A stretch of 34,748 bases of DNA from positions 1 through 34,748 of IMG/VR virus record IMGVR_UViG_3300013093_000135, one strand, 5' to 3'. A program made the translations under genes and the position numbers. The DNA comes from a virus. Each line of letters opens with the position of its first letter. Position 1 is the first letter of the stretch. The notes beneath the pieces are model-generated. The model was not told the origin of the DNA. It did not search any database and worked only from the letters and a program-made list of their open reading frames with translations. Below, one piece after another: positions 7,224 through 29,007 of the stretch.

Positions 7224-8926
7224 CAGCTACATCAGCCAGCACAACTAACTCTGCTATTGCTAAATGGTTGGCAACAAATCCACCTGCAGCAAAACAGAGT
7301 AAACTTAAAGATATTCAACAAACTTTTCAATCACAAAAAACTTCTGCTATTGCTCAAATTGTGGGTGCCATCAATCAAGCAAACGCCGTGTTTTACACGG
7401 GAAGTGGCAGCAGTGCGGTATTAATCAACTCACCTAAAGGGCTTACATATCCAAATCAAGCTCATTTTTACGATGGACCTTCTGACGGTTCCGTTAGTAC
7501 CATAACTTTTTATGGGGGTCTATACCAGAATCCAACAAAACCAGGTGATTGGTGGACAGGGTATCTTCCTTTTGATTCCAGTACAAAAGACGGTCTTTAT
7601 GATTATTACTTTGCCGTTCACTACAACGACTATCTTTTAGCTGGAAACGGAAACAATCCTTGGGCTGATACGACGCCTACTAACTTAGTATATGGGGACA
7701 CGTTCACCATTACAGTACCTTTGTTGTGGGCATATAACTTTTATACAAGCAGTAAAGTACTAAATTATTTACAAAACATGCTTGTTGCTGTAAATGCTTC
7801 TAACGCCTCAACTACTGTAAAAAACCAAGTAGAAGCCCAATACACTGATTATGTAGGTACTCCTGCTAAAGCAGTTATTAATCAGTACGGACGTATGCAA
7901 GCAAATATTAACTTAGGTAAAACTGTGCTAGCTCAGGCTGAGACAACGTACACAGATGCGGTTAACGCGTTAATTGGAGGATACTCGGGAGCACAATCTG
8001 CAACTGCAGCTGCTGCAGCCGCTGCTGCAAGAGCCGCAGCAGCTAACTCTAGTGCTTTAAACAATGGAGCAGCGTTAAGCGGTAATGATTACGCATCCCC
8101 TCCAAGCCTTCCTAATGACTGTAGTTTTAACCTACCTCCTCACAGAGCAAGTTTGCCACTAACAATGAGCTCAGACGGTCAGTATGGCCAAGACAGCTTA
8201 AGTGACATAGACCGTAGGGGTCGTTTTTGGTTTCACGCTGACCAGAAAGGGCTAGCTTTTACACAAAGCGCTACGTCTAGTCAAGACACCAATGCTAAAC
8301 CTACGACGTCATCCAAGTTATATGGGTTTCAATTTTTATGGAATCCTGAGTCGTATAGTGTTAATGTACAAATTAATGATGGGGTTACCCCTACATCGGC
8401 GCAATATTGGTCAACAGCTCTTCCAGTTTTTCCAGGAGGAGAGAGTTTGTCTGTTTCTATTGTTCTTGATAGAACAAACGATTTTGCAAGTTTTGGTGCT
8501 ACTCAAGACTACAATCAACTAACAAACTACTACGATGTGAGCAGCAGTGGTGTTGCAAAGACCCCTGATTCATCAGAGACCGATGAAAGTCTAGAAACAA
8601 AGATTAAAGATTTAATCGCTCGAGGTACTCTTGCAGATATTGAATACCTTTATAAAACAATCAACGGCGATGGGTGGGTAGGTCCAAGTGGACCATCTTC
8701 AGACATCGGTTTCTTAATGATGACGCTTGTTTGGATTGAACTTGGCCCTAAAATCTACTTAGGATACTTAGACAGCTTAAACATTACTCATACAAAATTT
8801 ACACAAGATATGAAACCTATTACTTCTCAGCTTGATATGTCATTTATTTTGATGGCAACAGCTCAAGCAGTACAGCAATCTAGCGGAAATAGCAATAACA
8901 CTCCTCCAAAAGGCGCAAAAAAGTGA
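7220..8926 (+). CDS. Tail/baseplate adaptor, CIS-tube-like domain
   Basis: The 568-aa product overlaps the tape measure stop in ATGA. The N-terminal half contains Trp/Tyr-rich segments (GDWWTGYLPFD, YYFAVHYNDY). A poly-Ala linker near residues 255-280 follows. The C-terminal half begins with a Cys-containing SLPNDCSFNLPPHRASLPL. Near residue 368 it has GFQFLWNPESYSVNVQ, like the 'FxxNPESxS' motif of the N-terminal domain of contractile-injection LysM adaptor proteins that join tube and hub. The next gene encodes a short LysM-like protein, which supports this: here the adaptor and LysM parts appear to be separate genes. The function of the N-terminal half is unknown. Confidence 0.65.
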   Translation: MTATSASTTNSAIAKWLATNPPAAKQSKLKDIQQTFQSQKTSAIAQIVGAINQANAVFYTGSGSSAVLINSPKGLTYPNQAHFYDGPSDGSVSTITFYGGLYQNPTKPGDWWTGYLPFDSSTKDGLYDYYFAVHYNDYLLAGNGNNPWADTTPTNLVYGDTFTITVPLLWAYNFYTSSKVLNYLQNMLVAVNASNASTTVKNQVEAQYTDYVGTPAKAVINQYGRMQANINLGKTVLAQAETTYTDAVNALIGGYSGAQSATAAAAAAAARAAAANSSALNNGAALSGNDYASPPSLPNDCSFNLPPHRASLPLTMSSDGQYGQDSLSDIDRRGRFWFHADQKGLAFTQSATSSQDTNAKPTTSSKLYGFQFLWNPESYSVNVQINDGVTPTSAQYWSTALPVFPGGESLSVSIVLDRTNDFASFGATQDYNQLTNYYDVSSSGVAKTPDSSETDESLETKIKDLIARGTLADIEYLYKTINGDGWVGPSGPSSDIGFLMMTLVWIELGPKIYLGYLDSLNITHTKFTQDMKPITSQLDMSFILMATAQAVQQSSGNSNNTPPKGAKK

Positions 8927-9204
8927 CTATTAAAAATAATTCTCGTTATATAAACTCAATTATTGAGTACATTCAATTAGAAGAAAATGGCCCGCAACTA
9001 CCTATTGTTTTTTATACGTTTTCTGATTTAGGACGGCTATCCTACAAAACTCATGTGTACGTTGAGGGTGAGCGTTTAGACCAAATAGCCTTTAAGTACT
9101 ACAACAGACCAAATCTTTGGTGGGTTATAGCTGAATTTAATCCACAAATATTTGACCCAATGTCTATTGCACCTGGAACAGAGTTGTTGATTCCAAATGT
9201 ATAA
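8923..9204 (+). CDS. LysM/gp53-like baseplate protein
   Basis: The 93-aa product uses a GTG start overlapping the previous TGA (GTGA). Its second half, GERLDQIAFKYYNRPNLWWV followed by IAEFNPQIFDP and IAPGTELLIP, is a clear LysM-type fold as used by T4 gp53-like and XkdP/gpX-like baseplate proteins. In virions this domain does not act on peptidoglycan freely but fits the hub to the tube or wedge. Its position between adaptor and hub genes agrees. It overlaps the hub gene by eight bases. Confidence 0.82.
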   Translation: MTIKNNSRYINSIIEYIQLEENGPQLPIVFYTFSDLGRLSYKTHVYVEGERLDQIAFKYYNRPNLWWVIAEFNPQIFDPMSIAPGTELLIPNV

Positions 9205-16307: not shown

Positions 16308-16982
16308 ATGGCTGATTCAGCATATTTGCTCATAGCGGGCAATGGAGCAACAAGCAAAACAAATATCGAAGCGCTTTTAAGCGATTACCTTGTCATGCTT
16401 AAACAACAGAAGCAGACACCTGTTATGGCACTGGTCTATGACGACTATCCGTCAACAGGTCTACAAGAAGCAGCAAAGCTAGCAAAAGAAAAAAATATCC
16501 AAATCCTCGCCTACTTGCGCGATGAGGATAAGGCGGTAGGACTGCCTGCGGGTACATCGTTCCAGGTTGAACGAGAGCCTTACAAGGAGGCTGCAAAGCT
16601 TGCCAAAGGGAGCTCAGACAAAGCCTATGGATTTCTATTATGGGACGATGAAGACCCACATTGCGTCGATGCTCTAGCCACTTTTAGCGCCAAGGGCATC
16701 CCCTGTTTTGACCTAACCAAGGGTCTGACCGATATCAACCCTGTCAAGGGCTTAAAAGCCCCTAAAGAGCCTAAAATGCCCGATATCGAGGTTGAGGTAG
16801 AAGAAGTACTTGACGAACGGTCACAAGAGCTCCTAGAGGCTTCTGAAGACGATTCTGAGGTATCTGAGGAGTACACCGACGAAGAGGAAGTCTTGATGGA
16901 GTATCTCTATGACTCCATGCTAGGATTCGCCAAGGTCATGGCACAACTTATCGCCATTGAGCTAAAAAAGGATTCCGAGTGA
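16308..16982 (+). CDS. Unknown protein with acidic tail
   Basis: The 224-aa product has AGAGGAG before ATG 16308. Residues 1-150 alternate strands and helices in a Rossmann-like way (AYLLIAGNGA, TPVMALVYDDYP, NIQILAYLRDED, AYGFLLWDDEDP), but no true P-loop or nucleotide-binding signature is complete. Residues ~160-205 are strongly acidic (EVEVEEVLDE, EASEDDSEVSEEYTDEEEVL), followed by a helix. It is the first gene of the replication module and overlaps the initiator-like gene by four bases. The acidic tail could contact a basic replication partner or mimic DNA. The family is not recognised. Confidence 0.65.
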   Translation: MADSAYLLIAGNGATSKTNIEALLSDYLVMLKQQKQTPVMALVYDDYPSTGLQEAAKLAKEKNIQILAYLRDEDKAVGLPAGTSFQVEREPYKEAAKLAKGSSDKAYGFLLWDDEDPHCVDALATFSAKGIPCFDLTKGLTDINPVKGLKAPKEPKMPDIEVEVEEVLDERSQELLEASEDDSEVSEEYTDEEEVLMEYLYDSMLGFAKVMAQLIAIELKKDSE

Positions 16983-17887
16983 TTTCACTCGAGGCAATGG
17001 CTTTATGGCTTTTTGCAAAAAGCGTTGGCTGGGAGACGATTACGGCTGAGAAGGTTGTAAACGAGTTTCCTGACCACGGCAAAAAGTATTACTACCGAGT
17101 CTTAAAAGAGATTCGAGTCGCAGGTGGCATCACCATGACCCGCGAATTTTATAACGGACATTGCACAACGGTTCAACGGCTTACAGAGTTCCCTGACGGG
17201 AGTCCCGAAAAGGCGTTTCTGTATCAACTAGTAAAGCCATATAGCTATTTAGCTGATTATGCTATAAAGCTACAAAGCTCTAAAGCTATTACTTCTAAAA
17301 GCTTACCTATACCGAAAATTTCGGAAAAGGGCGCGAAAAAATTTGAAAGTCAACTTTTGTCTTACGGAGTAAACGTGGATTTCGAATATACGGCAGACGA
17401 CAAAGAGTACGCAGAAGAGCAACAGGCTCTTCGCGCCAAAGGTCGGGCTGAAAAGCAAAAAGCGTACGCTGAAATCAAAGAAACGGAATATCGCAGGAAA
17501 GTCGAACTCCGTGACCGAGACCGCGTTCCTGCAAAAGACTGGTCTTCGTCAGACATCGCGTACTACTTCAGCGATAATCTCATGTTCCGCCGTTGGGACA
17601 TTCCACCTTGGCAGGTTAAGCACACTCGCTTTGTGCAGGCTTTAGCTGAGAAGCGAAGTCATGAGCAGACTAACGGTGCTATTGAAAAGAAGATGGTTGA
17701 CATTTATCTTGCAGAGCCGTGGGTAAAGACTGTTTCTGATTCAGAGCGTCTTTGGAAAACTTTTGTTAAACGTTTTGGAAGTTTGAAAGAGCAAGCCTTG
17801 CTTCAGTATCACAACCCTGATAGCTTTGCTGCTTCGAAAGAACTCGATGAGGCTCGTACTCGTCAAGCTTTAGGGTTGGAGGGATAA
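16979..17887 (+). CDS. Winged-helix replication initiator-like protein
   Basis: The 302-aa product uses a GTG start overlapping the previous TGA (GTGA). The N-terminus (ISLEAMALWLFAKSVGWETI, then KYYYRVLKEIRVAGGITMTR) reads as a winged-helix DNA-binding domain. The middle (residues ~85-115) is a Ser/Lys/Pro-rich linker whose DNA contains the 8-bp repeat array described separately. A Lys/Glu-rich coil follows. The C-terminal part (AKDWSSSDIAYYFSDNLMFR and a helical domain to residue ~270) resembles the loader-binding parts of replication proteins. The next gene is a DnaC-like loader overlapping by one base. This order mimics lambda O then P. Assignment as origin-binding initiator is inference from domains, array and context. 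Confidence 0.65.
   Translation: MISLEAMALWLFAKSVGWETITAEKVVNEFPDHGKKYYYRVLKEIRVAGGITMTREFYNGHCTTVQRLTEFPDGSPEKAFLYQLVKPYSYLADYAIKLQSSKAITSKSLPIPKISEKGAKKFESQLLSYGVNVDFEYTADDKEYAEEQQALRAKGRAEKQKAYAEIKETEYRRKVELRDRDRVPAKDWSSSDIAYYFSDNLMFRRWDIPPWQVKHTRFVQALAEKRSHEQTNGAIEKKMVDIYLAEPWVKTVSDSERLWKTFVKRFGSLKEQALLQYHNPDSFAASKELDEARTRQALGLEG
17233..17324 (+). repeat. 8-bp-spaced repeat array plus palindrome, candidate ori
   Basis: AAAGCT occurs at 17266, 17274, 17282 and 17298, all on an 8-base lattice. Related units with the GC at the same phase lie at 17233 (AAAGCC), 17242 and 17250 (TAGCT), and about one base off phase at 17259 (ATGCT). The array is AT-rich and is followed by a dyad CCGAAA (17312-17317), one base, TTTCGG (17319-17324). 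Iterons within the linker of an initiator gene, beside an AT-rich segment, are the layout of lambda ori inside gene O. Eight bases is not a multiple of three, so the period is not simply a peptide repeat. Confidence 0.5.
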
Positions 17888-18567
17888 TGTACGCACTTGA
17901 GTCATTGAAGATACGTAGACGTTCGTGGTTTAAAGTGGCAAACATCCCTGCCAAATCTGTGGGCTGGACTTTGTCTGACTGCCTGCCGTTAGGGAACGCC
18001 ACCGATTACGTTAAACACTGGTTAGAGCATGTTAAGTCTGACCGTGTTATTCGTGCGTATGGTTCATCGTTCTGCGGTAAAGGTGTGATGCTCTACGGTG
18101 ATGCAGGTCACGGTAAATCCACGCTAGCGTCTGCTGTATTACAAGAGATGATTACAACGTTTTCTTTAGCAACGTTTAAGAGCGAAGCTGTTTTAGTTCG
18201 CCCGTGCTACTTTACGTCGTATACAAAGCTCATCGCTTTAAAAGGTCGAACCATGGAACCTGATACGAGCGATTGGGATTACAAGCTGTATTACGGCATC
18301 TTAGGTGAGTGTGCTGACGACGCTTACAATGTACGTGTACTTGTTATAGATGACGTTGGGCACGAGCATATGGGTCAGAACGGTTGGAGTAAAAATCTTT
18401 TACACGAAGTTCTGCGCACTCGATTTGAGAACGGATTGCCTACCATAATGACAACTAACCTCTCTACAGAGGATTGGGTAAACGGTTATGGTGATGCGAC
18501 ACGAAATTTCCTTTTCGAGGCTTTCCTTTCTATAGCCGTCGAAAATACATCAGGTCATCTAAGATAG
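17887..18567 (+). CDS. DnaC-like AAA+ helicase loader
   Basis: The 226-aa product overlaps the previous stop by one base (TAATG). Walker A is GDAGHGKS at residues 71-78, and Walker B is VLVIDDVG at 151-158. A sensor-like TIMTTNLS near residue 194 and an arginine-rich DNA-facing helix (LHEVLRTRFENGLPT) follow. This is the DnaC/IstB type of AAA+ ATPase, which loads the replicative helicase onto single-stranded DNA at the origin. The DnaB-like helicase lies three genes downstream, and the initiator-like gene lies immediately upstream. The ATPase core is complete. Confidence 0.85.
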   Translation: MYALESLKIRRRSWFKVANIPAKSVGWTLSDCLPLGNATDYVKHWLEHVKSDRVIRAYGSSFCGKGVMLYGDAGHGKSTLASAVLQEMITTFSLATFKSEAVLVRPCYFTSYTKLIALKGRTMEPDTSDWDYKLYYGILGECADDAYNVRVLVIDDVGHEHMGQNGWSKNLLHEVLRTRFENGLPTIMTTNLSTEDWVNGYGDATRNFLFEAFLSIAVENTSGHLR

Positions 18568-18572
18568 AAGTT

Positions 18573-18869
18573 GTGAAAGGTTATAAGCTTCTTCAAGTAT
18601 TTCTCAGTACGAAGACAACTTCGCATCCTGGGATTTTCGAAGTCTCTACCAACTCTAACGACGACTTACACTGCACATGTCCAGGATTTACTTCACGTGG
18701 GTTGTGTAAACACATTGATTTCGTAAAAGCTAAGATGAATGAAAACAAAGGAGTGTACCCGTTAGCGGTGTCTAGCAAGGCTACGTCATATGACGCAGAG
18801 GCAGCTAAGACATCTGAGAAAGCTATGCGGGACTTTGTTATACGATTTGGAAAAATAGAGGTGTTTTAA
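18573..18869 (+). CDS. SWIM zinc-finger small protein
   Basis: The 98-aa product starts at GTG 18573, with only weak GAAG upstream. It contains a complete SWIM pattern, CTCPGFTSRGLCKHIDFVK, with zinc ligands C34, C36, C45 and H47. SWIM domains bind DNA or proteins and occur in helicases, transposases and recombination-linked factors. Here it stands alone between the loader and the helicase genes, so it may bind single-stranded DNA or a replication partner. The role is inferred. The C-terminal half is Ala/Lys-rich and helical. It overlaps the next gene by one base. Confidence 0.75.
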   Translation: MKGYKLLQVFLSTKTTSHPGIFEVSTNSNDDLHCTCPGFTSRGLCKHIDFVKAKMNENKGVYPLAVSSKATSYDAEAAKTSEKAMRDFVIRFGKIEVF

Positions 18870-19291
18870 TGCAATATGGTGATATCAGCAATGAGCTTCC
18901 CAAGCGTTTGCTGGTTCACCTAGACGTGGTAACAACGTCAACCCCTGAAGTTACAAAGAAATTTAAAGTAATCCCTAAAGTCTCTTATAAAGTGGAGTAC
19001 AACATGGGGGCGCTTAGTCGTTTCTATTTATACACCAGCCGCGTTGGTACTACTCTGGAGTTAATCAGTACAGATAGGGACGATGAAGCGACGAAAGAAA
19101 TTATTGATTATCTGGATAGAGTAGGGACAAACCCTTTTCGATACTACAGGGCATACGATTCCGTAGAACAACTTGTTGCAGAACTTCCATATCGACCTGA
19201 AGTAACAGGTGTTGTGGATTTGCCAAATAGGTTGCTAAGGTATGGTCATTGGGGTCTTACATTCAGCGACGTATTTGGTGGTGGAATTTGA
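18869..19291 (+). CDS. Conserved-looking hypothetical replication-module protein
   Basis: The 140-aa product has GAGGTG before ATG 18869 and overlaps its neighbours (TAATG upstream, TTGA downstream). It begins with PKRLLVHLDVVTTSTPEVTK, where HLDVV sits in the position of HAD motif I but lacks the second Asp. A middle segment LISTDRDDEATKEIIDYLDR and an end segment ELPYRPEVTGVVDLP, RYGHWG are also HAD-like in outline. This suggests a HAD-related fold that has lost activity, or simply a coincidental pattern. I give no function. The tight coupling to dnaB suggests that it is expressed with the replisome. Confidence 0.6.
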   Translation: MQYGDISNELPKRLLVHLDVVTTSTPEVTKKFKVIPKVSYKVEYNMGALSRFYLYTSRVGTTLELISTDRDDEATKEIIDYLDRVGTNPFRYYRAYDSVEQLVAELPYRPEVTGVVDLPNRLLRYGHWGLTFSDVFGGGI

Positions 19292-20523
19292 ATAACGAAA
19301 CAAGGATTCTTCATAAGCTCATTGCTAATAGAGACCTGTCTCCGCTACTTACCCGTGGGGTAAGCGACTCTTGGTTTTCTGATGATAGCAACATCCGCCT
19401 ATTTCAATTTATCCGTGAACACTTTATTAACTACTCAGAGTGTCCAAGTATTGAAGCGGTAAATAAAAACTTTCCAAACTTTGTTTTAGAAGAACCTCTT
19501 GATTCTATTGATTACTTGCTTGACACATTTGTGTCCGATAGACGAAAGAGCTTTACCCATGCTTTGTTAAAAGACGCTATTGAAGTCTATGACAAGTTTG
19601 GTCACGAAGAATCCTTGATTGCTTTGCAAGGAGGTTTACTTCGCATTGATGAAGAGACTTTTAGTTCAAGCGATGATGTCGACTTAACAAAAACTACTGA
19701 AGAACGTTTTGCGGAGTACTTACGTAGAAAGGACACTCCTGATGGCATCCTTGGTTATCGCACTGGTTTTCCCACTATTGATAAGAGCATTAGCGGTATA
19801 CAGCCAGGACAACTCATTGTCGTAGCTGCTTTGCCAAAGACTGGTAAGTCAACCCTGTGTTTGCAGATGGCTATCAACATGCAGCTTGAAGGTCAAAAGG
19901 TTATGTTTCAATCTTACGAAATGACTAACGTGGAACAAGAAGCGCGTTACGATGCTATTCGAGGAAAGCTGTCACATTTTCGTTTGATGACAGGTTCTAT
20001 GACTGAAGAGGAAGAAGCCCGTTACCGTTCAAGCTTAACTTTTACAAGTAAGTTAGAGAGCGGATTTCTCTTGCCTAGCCAAAAGGTGGGTAAAACAATT
20101 ACTGGAATTGCTAACAAGATTCAGTTGTTGCAACCTGACGTGGTGTTTATTGATGGTGTCTACTTGATGCTTGATGAACAGACCAAGGAGATGAACACTC
20201 CTCGTGCGCTGACTAACATCACACGTAACCTCAAGAACTTAGCTATGCGAGTTCAAAAGCCAATCATTATTAACACTCAGTACTTGGCGCATAAGACTAA
20301 TAAGGGTAAAGCAACCATTGACTCTATTGGTTACGCGTCCTCGTTCGCACAGGATGCTGACGTTGTGATGGGCTTGGAGCGCGAGTCCGAAGAGGTTGAC
20401 GACATGCGTATTCTAAAGATTATGGCTAGCCGTAACTCAGGTCCTGCAGAGATTTCTTTGACATGGGAATGGGATAAGGGCGTCTTTAAAGAGCAAGAGG
20501 AGAGTGACCTCAATGACTACTGA
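19288..20523 (+). CDS. dnaB: Replicative DNA helicase (DnaB-like)
   Basis: The start chosen is TTG 19288, which overlaps the previous TGA (TTGA) and has GGTGGTGG upstream. An earlier in-frame TTG at 19249 would add 13 unlikely residues. The product is 411 aa. A helical N-terminal domain (to ~residue 125) precedes a RecA-like domain with Walker A ALPKTGKS (181-188, the DnaB form AxPxxGKT/S), Walker B VVFIDGVYLM, and motifs around NTQYLAHKTNKG and DVVMGLERESEEVDDMRILK. It unwinds DNA ahead of the polymerase and works with the DnaC-like loader and the primase encoded on either side. It overlaps the primase gene by 11 bases. Confidence 0.9.
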   Translation: MNNETRILHKLIANRDLSPLLTRGVSDSWFSDDSNIRLFQFIREHFINYSECPSIEAVNKNFPNFVLEEPLDSIDYLLDTFVSDRRKSFTHALLKDAIEVYDKFGHEESLIALQGGLLRIDEETFSSSDDVDLTKTTEERFAEYLRRKDTPDGILGYRTGFPTIDKSISGIQPGQLIVVAALPKTGKSTLCLQMAINMQLEGQKVMFQSYEMTNVEQEARYDAIRGKLSHFRLMTGSMTEEEEARYRSSLTFTSKLESGFLLPSQKVGKTITGIANKIQLLQPDVVFIDGVYLMLDEQTKEMNTPRALTNITRNLKNLAMRVQKPIIINTQYLAHKTNKGKATIDSIGYASSFAQDADVVMGLERESEEVDDMRILKIMASRNSGPAEISLTWEWDKGVFKEQEESDLNDY

Positions 20524-21451
20524 TGAGATGGTCAGCCTTCTTGAAAAACTCGGTGTTGAGGCTGGAGAAGTTCAAGGACGTGAGGTAAAGGCTCGTTGTC
20601 CTGCTCACCTAGCTCGTACAGGTAGGGAAGACTCTCACCCTTCGTTCTCTATCAACGCTTCTACAGGTGCCTTTCGTTGCTGGTCCTGCCACTTTAAAGG
20701 AAACCTTCAGTACCTTGTTTCTTACATCGGTGGGGTTGACTACGAAGATGTTGATAAATTCATCAAAGACAAAGAAGAGTTAAGTGATTTGCTTGCACGT
20801 GTAGACGCTGAACCTGAGGAAGACCTGATTCCTACTGTTCTATACGAGTCTGAGCTAGCTCTTTTTACACCACCCCCTACGGACATTTTACGAGGTCGCG
20901 GAATACTTCCTAGTGCTGCTGCACGCTTAGGGATTTTGTACGACCCTAAGAAACGTTCATGGATTATTCCTATTCGTGACCCTCTCACAAACGCTTTATG
21001 GGGTTGGCAAGAAAAAGGAATTACGGGTCGTTACTTTATGAATTACCCGACAGGTGTTAAAAAAGGTCGAACACTCTTTGGCTACTATCAACAGATGAAG
21101 GTTTCTACAGATGAAGCAAGCCTGCTTCTCGTAGAGTCTCCGTTAGATGTGGCTCGACTAGCTTCTGTAGGGATTGACTTTGGTGTTGCTGCTTACGGCG
21201 CTAGTTTGACCAAAGACCAGTATGAGCTTCTTAATACCGACCGCAAACTATATGTTGCACTGGATAACGACGAAGCTGGGCGCAACTCCACCAGTGAGGT
21301 TGGAGTGTGGGCTGATAAGGTCAATCGTCCTGTATGGTTCTTTAATTACAACCATACTGACCAAAAGGATGTTGGCGGTATGAGCAAAGATGAGATTTAC
21401 ACAGGAATAGCAAACGCACGCATATCATTAAGAAAAGGGGCTTTTCAGTGA
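20513..21451 (+). CDS. DNA primase (CHC2 zinc finger plus Toprim)
   Basis: ATG 20513 is preferred over GTG 20504 because AGGAG at 20498-20502 is 10 bases upstream of it but only one from the GTG. The product is 312 aa. A CHC2 zinc finger uses C29, H32, C56 and C59 (CPAHLARTG..., CWSCHFKGN). Toprim motifs follow: LLLVESPLDVARLASVGIDF and then KLYVALDNDEAGRNS, giving the conserved E and DxD-type acidic residues. It makes RNA primers for lagging-strand synthesis. It overlaps the helicase end and the kinase start. Confidence 0.92.
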   Translation: MTTDEMVSLLEKLGVEAGEVQGREVKARCPAHLARTGREDSHPSFSINASTGAFRCWSCHFKGNLQYLVSYIGGVDYEDVDKFIKDKEELSDLLARVDAEPEEDLIPTVLYESELALFTPPPTDILRGRGILPSAAARLGILYDPKKRSWIIPIRDPLTNALWGWQEKGITGRYFMNYPTGVKKGRTLFGYYQQMKVSTDEASLLLVESPLDVARLASVGIDFGVAAYGASLTKDQYELLNTDRKLYVALDNDEAGRNSTSEVGVWADKVNRPVWFFNYNHTDQKDVGGMSKDEIYTGIANARISLRKGAFQ

Positions 21452-28433: not shown

Positions 28434-29007
28434 CGACTGGTACGCCCGCCAATTAGGTGGTCGCGCTCCACAGCAACCTCAGCAGCTTCCCCCACAATTT
28501 CAACAGGTTCCTCCGCAGTACCAGCAGCCTTACCCACCCCAGTATCAACAGCAGCCTCCAGTCTATCCACCACCACAGTTTCAACAACAACCTGTCTACC
28601 CACCCCAGTACCAGCAATACCCACCACAGCCACCTCAGTATTACCCTCCACAACCACAGTACTATCCACAGCAACCTCAAAACTATCCTCCACAACAGTA
28701 CGGTCCTATGCCTGGGCAGAAGTTATCGGAGTACCAAGGTTATGAGCACACTCCTCCAAAGAGCGCAAACTCCGCCGACCTTTGTCCAGATTGCAACAGT
28801 AGAAATTACTCAAAGGTAGGAAAGACTCCACCATCACAAGCAGGTCCAGGTCAGGATATTTGGCGCTGTTATGACTGTGGCTACCCTGTTAAGCAAACAA
28901 CAAGCGGTATGGGTGGATTTAGCCAACAAAGTACTGGACCAACTATGCCTGCAAAACAAGTTCCGACAGGCGGGTTCAACCCACAGGGGATTATCGGTCA
29001 CATCTAG
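28420..29007 (+). CDS. Pro/Gln/Tyr-rich protein with zinc ribbon
   Basis: Start chosen at ATG 28420, with GCAGGAG nine bases upstream; an earlier open start at 28360 lies inside the previous gene. The 195-aa product has an N-terminal SNNSDWYARQLGGRAPQQ, a low-complexity Pro/Gln/Tyr stretch (residues ~20-100, repeats like YPPQ, PPQYQQ) and then a zinc ribbon, CPDC (residue ~125) to CYDC (residue ~153), near RCYDCGYPV. The C-terminus is Gly/Thr-rich. Low-complexity tails like this are typical of single-stranded DNA-binding proteins and condensate-forming proteins, and RecA is next. The Pro/Gln region gives long open frames on the other strand, which are shadows. Confidence 0.7.
   Translation: MSNNSDWYARQLGGRAPQQPQQLPPQFQQVPPQYQQPYPPQYQQQPPVYPPPQFQQQPVYPPQYQQYPPQPPQYYPPQPQYYPQQPQNYPPQQYGPMPGQKLSEYQGYEHTPPKSANSADLCPDCNSRNYSKVGKTPPSQAGPGQDIWRCYDCGYPVKQTTSGMGGFSQQSTGPTMPAKQVPTGGFNPQGIIGHI

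Follow-up and report, generated by a model that had tools for sequence, protein, structure and literature searches.

The window, that is, the whole stretch of DNA analysed here, is a 34.7-kb fragment of an uncultivated tailed phage, and a 10.9-kb test stretch of it is identical to IMG/VR contig 3300013094_000090 (47.6 kb). A contractile tail is indicated by sheath, tube and baseplate genes in the window. Since the best matches of the sheath and DnaB proteins come from the Streptomyces myophages BRock and GiJojo, the actinobacterial myophage of the original prediction appears reasonable from sequence comparison. The features of the replication locus are collected in Table 1. An O-like initiator gene is followed in order by genes encoding a DnaC-like loader, a SWIM-domain protein, an unknown protein, a DnaB helicase and a primase, and farther downstream of the primase by polymerase, UvsX-like recombinase and exonuclease genes. 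PHROG and Pfam matches agree with the earlier reading of the gene next to the initiator as a DnaC-like loader. A host genome search with the loader alignment gave no match, and the whole-protein alignment A4 proved too divergent for scanning genomes. The gene directly 5' of the initiator (window 16308-16982) starts with MADSAYLLIAGNG.., has an acidic C-terminus and is conserved in the relatives read; neither Pfam nor PHROG gave a match to it.

Table 1. Coordinates of replication genes, predicted protein regions and DNA elements in the window.
Feature	Position	Strand	Details
O-like initiator gene	16979..17887	+	302 aa; GTG start overlaps preceding stop
Predicted N-terminal winged-helix domain of initiator, residues 1-70	16979..17188	+	AlphaFold2 H-H-H-E-E, pLDDT about 85-93
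Third least stable 100-bp duplex stretch of window	17222..17321	.	nearest-neighbour energies
Iteron array	17231..17303	+	units GTAAAGCC ATATAGCT ATTTAGCT G ATTATGCT ATAAAGCT ACAAAGCT CTAAAGCT ATTACTTC (degenerate) TAAAAGCT
Predicted disordered linker of initiator, residues 89-136	17243..17386	+	pLDDT below 50
Dyad CCGAAA-A-TTTCGG	17312..17324	.	exact; adjoins array
Predicted long helix (139-178) and helical C-terminal domain (190-297) of initiator	17393..17887	+	
DnaC-like AAA+ helicase loader gene	17887..18567	+	phrog_50 E 1e-26, PF01695 IstB
Small SWIM zinc-finger protein	18573-18869		between loader and helicase genes
DnaB-like replicative helicase gene	19249..20523	+	phrog_19 E 2e-53
DnaG-like primase gene	20504..21451	+	phrog_47 E 6e-37

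The window initiator had no Pfam match, and a tblastn search of cultured phages with this protein (50,697 phage records) found none either; tblastn with two of its relatives (L007 and L078) was likewise negative. Its structure was predicted by AlphaFold2 on an alignment of 23 sequences, as single chains. Besides the regions listed in Table 1, a helix is predicted at residues 76-92, and the relative placing of the domains is unreliable (pTM 0.39). For the N-terminal domain, Foldseek matched winged-helix regulators, none of them below E 0.001 in the PDB. Among viral folds, an uncharacterised group was matched at E 1e-13, and there were weak matches to a lambda O N-terminal protein and to a replisome organiser. 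Weak matches to PF13730 HTH_36 were found in relatives, below the cut-off. In L030, L015 and L007, the N-terminal part matches PHROG families of the replication-initiation or DnaD-like kind, the best match being that of L030 to phrog_428 (E 2e-7), and the O-like family phrog_391 was matched by one relative, at E 0.0096 only. On the basis of the model, the C-terminal part of the initiator is proposed to contact the loader. This role is fitted by GiJojo gp100 (L039 4562-5038), a stand-alone protein encoded directly before the DnaC-like loader gene, which resembles the C-terminal domain only (hhalign E 3e-5, probability 73%). BRock gp115 (L038 4115-4576) is also a stand-alone protein before a DnaC-like gene.

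The array inside the initiator gene consists of eight AGCY-type units with 8/9-bp spacing, read as eight-base words ending in AGCY, and the family consensus is ATATAGCY. AAAGCT starts at 17266, 17274, 17282 and 17298. The GCY of the first units lies in one phase at 17236, 17244 and 17252, shifts by one at 17261 and continues on the shifted phase at 17269, 17277, 17285 and 17301, with a degenerate unit (TCT) near 17294. These coordinates, and those of the dyad, had been given correctly base for base in the original prediction. Array and dyad together occupy codons 85-115, which encode the helix end and the first half of the disordered stretch, so the AlphaFold2 model supports the earlier placing of the array in the linker DNA of a winged-helix protein. 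The motif chain with 8/9-bp spacing scores 68.1, compared with 24.8 +/- 8.5 for codon shuffles that preserve the protein and its codon usage, and none of 2000 shuffles (0/2000) reached this score. Note that the motif was derived from the array itself, and these numbers thus show only that codon usage does not create the array. The runner-up chain on both strands of the 34.7 kb scores 19.6, the array's own antisense reading excepted, and a blind scan of the whole window for lag-8 self-similarity peaks at 17220. AAAGCT is present in all three reading frames (..ATA AAG CTA CAA AGC TCT AAA GCT..). The 8-base period does not keep to the codon frame and therefore leaves no repeat in the protein; a protein-level repeat was rejected because the period crosses all three frames and codon shuffles do not reproduce the array.

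A total of 22 further initiator genes were found by loader and initiator searches of IMG/VR, encoding proteins 22-50% identical to the window's (alignment A5). The loader gene lies directly 3' of the initiator gene wherever the gene order was read in these relatives. Because the motif was taken from the window, it is the relatives that provide an independent test. Most of them possess AGCY-type repeats, 8-9 bp apart, in the corresponding part of the gene, and these repeats often precede a dyad that varies in sequence and keeps its pairing. The best chain of the window motif was located at codons 80-113 in L005, L006, L007-L009, L010, L020, L015, L021 and L030. Codon shuffling gave p values from 1/2001 to 3/2001 (1/501 where 500 shuffles were run) for all of these except L006, which is marginal with this motif (66/2001); the values were 3/2001 for L005, 1/2001 for each of L007, L010, L015 and L021, and 1/501 for L020 and L030. 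A pooled motif was built from 46 units, the first four bases being A/T-rich and followed by A (40/46), G (37/46), C (42/46) and T/C (45/46). With the pooled motif, the distant relatives L069, L070, L072, L074 and L078 gave p values of 0.001-0.004. The donors L060 and L015-L030 were left out as independent tests, with the exception of L060, which carries ATATAGCCCTATAGCTAATATAACCAATATAGCTAATAAACCTAATATAGCT and gave 1/1001, an optimistic value because L060 lent units to the motif. The ATATAGCY motif does not score in L022-L024, L077 and L081. A 16-bp palindrome, AGACTAGC(C/A)ATAGTCT, is present in the linker of L022, L023 and L024 near codon 99 and is possibly these relatives' version of the site. 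No such array was seen by eye in the stretch 5' of the loader gene of BRock and GiJojo, and these phages may use a different origin-binding protein. Across the family the repeat spacing is 8 or 9 bp; the repeats predicted originally are real in the window, but their exact 8-base lattice does not extend to the family.

Synonymous changes were counted in eight pairs of relatives, in the codons aligned to window residues 85-116 and in the rest of the gene. The array codons contain 20 changes where 64.3 were expected (CMH z -7.4), and 59.5 were expected when amino acid and pair were fixed, with a count as low in 0 of 20,000 permutations. The depletion is threefold overall. Counts for individual pairs are 1/33 in the array vs 89/228 in the rest for L010/L020, 2/28 vs 97/226 for L070/L072 and 0/31 vs 61/243 for L081/L082. 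In a blind scan, the quietest 25-codon window falls on or beside the linker in most pairs, and away from it in L007/L008, L021/L015 and L074/L078. The pairs L081/L082 and L022/L023 are constrained there despite an unrecognised ATATAGCY motif, and in these lineages the sites have presumably changed along with the protein. An overlapping gene was rejected as the cause of the constraint because no other ORF of at least 60 aa overlaps 17233-17324. Conserved repeats with synonymous constraint in related contigs had been named in advance as a check on the origin reading; both were found, and the constraint is strong.

The dyad adjoining the array is not significant in the window alone (P=0.134, codon shuffling), and on sequence comparison it becomes convincing only through the relatives. 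CCGAAA..TTTCGG with a 4-5 nt spacer is kept in L005 (TTCCGAAA-AAAA-TTTCGGAA, P 0.011) and in L010 and L020 (CCGAAA-N5-TTTCGG). The right arm of L010 is read in a different frame from that of the window (AAT TTC GGA vs ATT TCG GAA), which means that the DNA is kept and not the protein. Other dyads occupy the same place in L007, L015, L021, L030 and L060. That of L007 is also found in L009 (TTCATCAGAA-AAAAA-TTCTGATGAA, P about 0.01), that of L060, read from the sequence, is CAGAAAAT-ATAA-ATTTTCTG, and those of L015, L021 and L030 have seven-base arms flanking GGA. Three of the seven pairs vary among the latter three sequences, and all of them (3/3, from three sequences only) are compensated; when the partner was slid by 1-3 bases as a control, no compensated pairs were obtained. 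DNA mini-hairpins of the C(GNA)G form are unusually stable, and the dyad loop C-GGA-G of L015 (4326-4342) and L030 (3437-3453) fits this form. A clear dyad was not found at this place in L006 and L022-L024. The spacer ranges from 1 to 5 nt across the family, which favours a hairpin in the single strand over a fixed dimer site. A terminator was rejected, as the dyad has no T-run and the terminator scan had no match there.

The weakly paired stretch that coincides with the array (Table 1) is a candidate unwinding region; duplex DNA of the lowest stability in the window is located in tail genes (8749-9016). On the 47.6-kb contig, cumulative GC skew reaches its minimum at 28,599, some 1.3 kb 5' of the initiator gene. 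The minimum lies within 3.3 kb of the initiator gene in G009 and away from it in G003, G008 and G011. A skew minimum at the origin, as originally expected, thus fits the window's genome and, approximately, one relative; three other relatives do not show it. The skew provides weak support since the contigs are linear and possibly incomplete and the gene module switches at the same place. As proof it was rejected, because the genomes disagree and the change from structural to replication genes acts as a confounder. DnaA boxes do not exceed chance (9 near-matches vs 8.8 expected), and none lies in the array.

Origins within initiator genes are known from several systems. In lambda, the ori iterons lie inside gene O (PMC6022878, PMC5043065). 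As in lambda, the iterons here are located in DNA for the linker between the DNA-binding and putative loader-binding domains, AT-rich DNA is present, and the loader gene follows directly 3' of the initiator. Unlike lambda, which has four 18/19-bp inverted repeats bound by dimers and a separate 39-40 bp AT-rich block, the window has 8-9 direct contiguous units of 8-9 bp within the AT-rich DNA itself. Its initiator also has no Pfam match to lambda O, its loader is DnaC/IstB-like (phrog_50), and the phage possesses its own DnaB and primase. Because both the iteron type and the initiator family differ, the element is not a member of the lambda family. The Bacillus phage SPP1 has direct repeats (oriL) in gene 38, with gp39 as loader and gp40 as DnaB (PMC6316719). 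Like SPP1, the window phage combines direct repeats with AT-rich DNA inside the initiator gene, and in both phages the operon also includes genes for a loader and a DnaB-type helicase; SPP1 also has oriR, whereas no second array was seen on either strand of the window. Staphylococcus phage 80alpha likewise pairs its initiator gene with a DnaC-like loader gene, as the G38P-like and DnaC-like ORF20-21, and the same plan is probable there (PMC5499656). In the staphylococcal plasmid pSK41, the RepA_N Rep boxes lie mid-rep, in DNA for a dispensable linker (PMC5703833). The likeness to pSK41 is one of plan only, with a winged-helix N-terminus, boxes in the linker DNA and, in pSK41, a functional C-terminal domain. 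pSK41 differs in having four Rep boxes in place of 8-9 short units and a primase, not a loader, as C-terminal partner, and the window initiator has no RepA_N Pfam match.

The initiators of Oenococcus phage Krappator149 and Lactobacillus phage LR1 have an N-terminal winged helix related to that of L030 (47% over 54 aa and 42% over 49 aa), with matches that do not reach the C-terminal part. Both phages have direct repeats within the initiator gene, with periods of 11 and 15 bp, respectively. Three perfect 11-bp repeats (GGACGAATCGT) were located within the annotated replication initiation gene of Krappator149 (L084 2172-2206), and 15-bp repeats in the initiator gene of LR1 (L085). The Krappator149 repeats are likely an origin of the same plan. 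The element in the window most likely works like the lambda, SPP1, 80alpha and pSK41 systems, and it is best called an initiator-gene origin with shorter and more tightly packed iterons than those of lambda.

From the sequence, its conservation, the synonymous constraint, the compensated pairing of the dyad and the gene context, we infer protein binding, melting, loading and origin activity, and the stretch is very probably a replication origin that the phage carries inside its initiator gene. The originally predicted O-ori-P-like unit is strengthened by relatives that keep the repeats and, in most cases, the dyad in place. The origin would be of theta type. The N-terminal winged helix of the initiator would bind the short ATATAGCY iterons, with adjacent subunits probably covering 8-9 bp each, and crowding and bending by the protein may melt the weakly paired DNA of the array. 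The opened strand would then pass from the C-terminal domain to the product of the neighbouring DnaC-like loader gene. This loader would load the phage DnaB helicase, after which phage primase and polymerase would act. The dyad would be part of the origin, either as a hairpin in the melted strand or as a second protein site, and the disordered linker of the initiator may exist mainly because its DNA is the origin. A bolder version holds that single initiator subunits, not separate dimers, coat the duplex in an unbroken row, and that the covarying dyad is a hairpin exposed in the melted strand to guide helicase or primase loading, an opening mode distinct from lambda O and plasmid iterons. It is suggested by iterons that are only 8-9 bp long, spacer-free and interchangeable between 8 and 9 bp, and we regard it as speculative and rather unlikely. 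Several points speak against the origin reading in general, namely the skew discord in G003, G008 and G011, the marginal L006, the motif-less L022-L024, L077 and L081, DnaA boxes at no more than chance frequency, and the dyad spacer, which is variable, unlike that of a fixed protein site.

The array could instead be an autoregulatory operator, bound by the winged-helix protein to tune transcription of the replication operon, and not an origin. Repressors are common among winged-helix proteins, regulators are the nearest folds in the PDB, and one weak promoter-like site on the minus strand (17284-17256) overlaps the array. We nevertheless consider an operator improbable, as the array lies 250 bp inside the gene, 3' of its start and not at a promoter, contains no plus-strand promoter-like site, and is followed by loader, helicase and primase genes, a layout whose known precedents are origins. 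Operator and origin roles could also coexist. Slightly less credible still is another cis-acting DNA site, for partition, packaging or as a recombination hot spot, or an mRNA element, such as a hairpin tuning loader translation. Hairpin formation by the dyad is possible, compensatory changes preserve the pairing of its arms, and parS repeats adjoin repA in some mycobacteriophages (PMC7157519). However, the constraint extends over iterons and dyad alike, known origins occupy such a position within an initiator gene, and the site lies about 560 bases 5' of the loader start and has no Rfam match. It is hardly conceivable that the repeats are a by-product, free of DNA function, of the AT-rich linker and its codon bias (K, S, A, I, N). 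In favour of this are the low complexity of the linker and the already raised null from codon shuffling of the window (24.8), but the array beats codon shuffles in the window and most relatives, its 8-bp period is out of frame, and the synonymous depletion at fixed amino acid refutes this explanation unless the alignments are wrong.

With an origin inside the initiator gene as the preferred reading, the family comprises 23 initiator genes for which a putative origin sequence is defined and testable. In the literature searched, no replication origin has been described for BRock-like myophages or their uncultivated relatives. The finding also prompts one to ask how winged-helix subunits can bind at a spacing of only 8-9 bp. 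Selection at the DNA level can be read directly at the synonymous sites of the initiator linker, and this synonymous-site test offers a way to find origins in other uncultivated phages.
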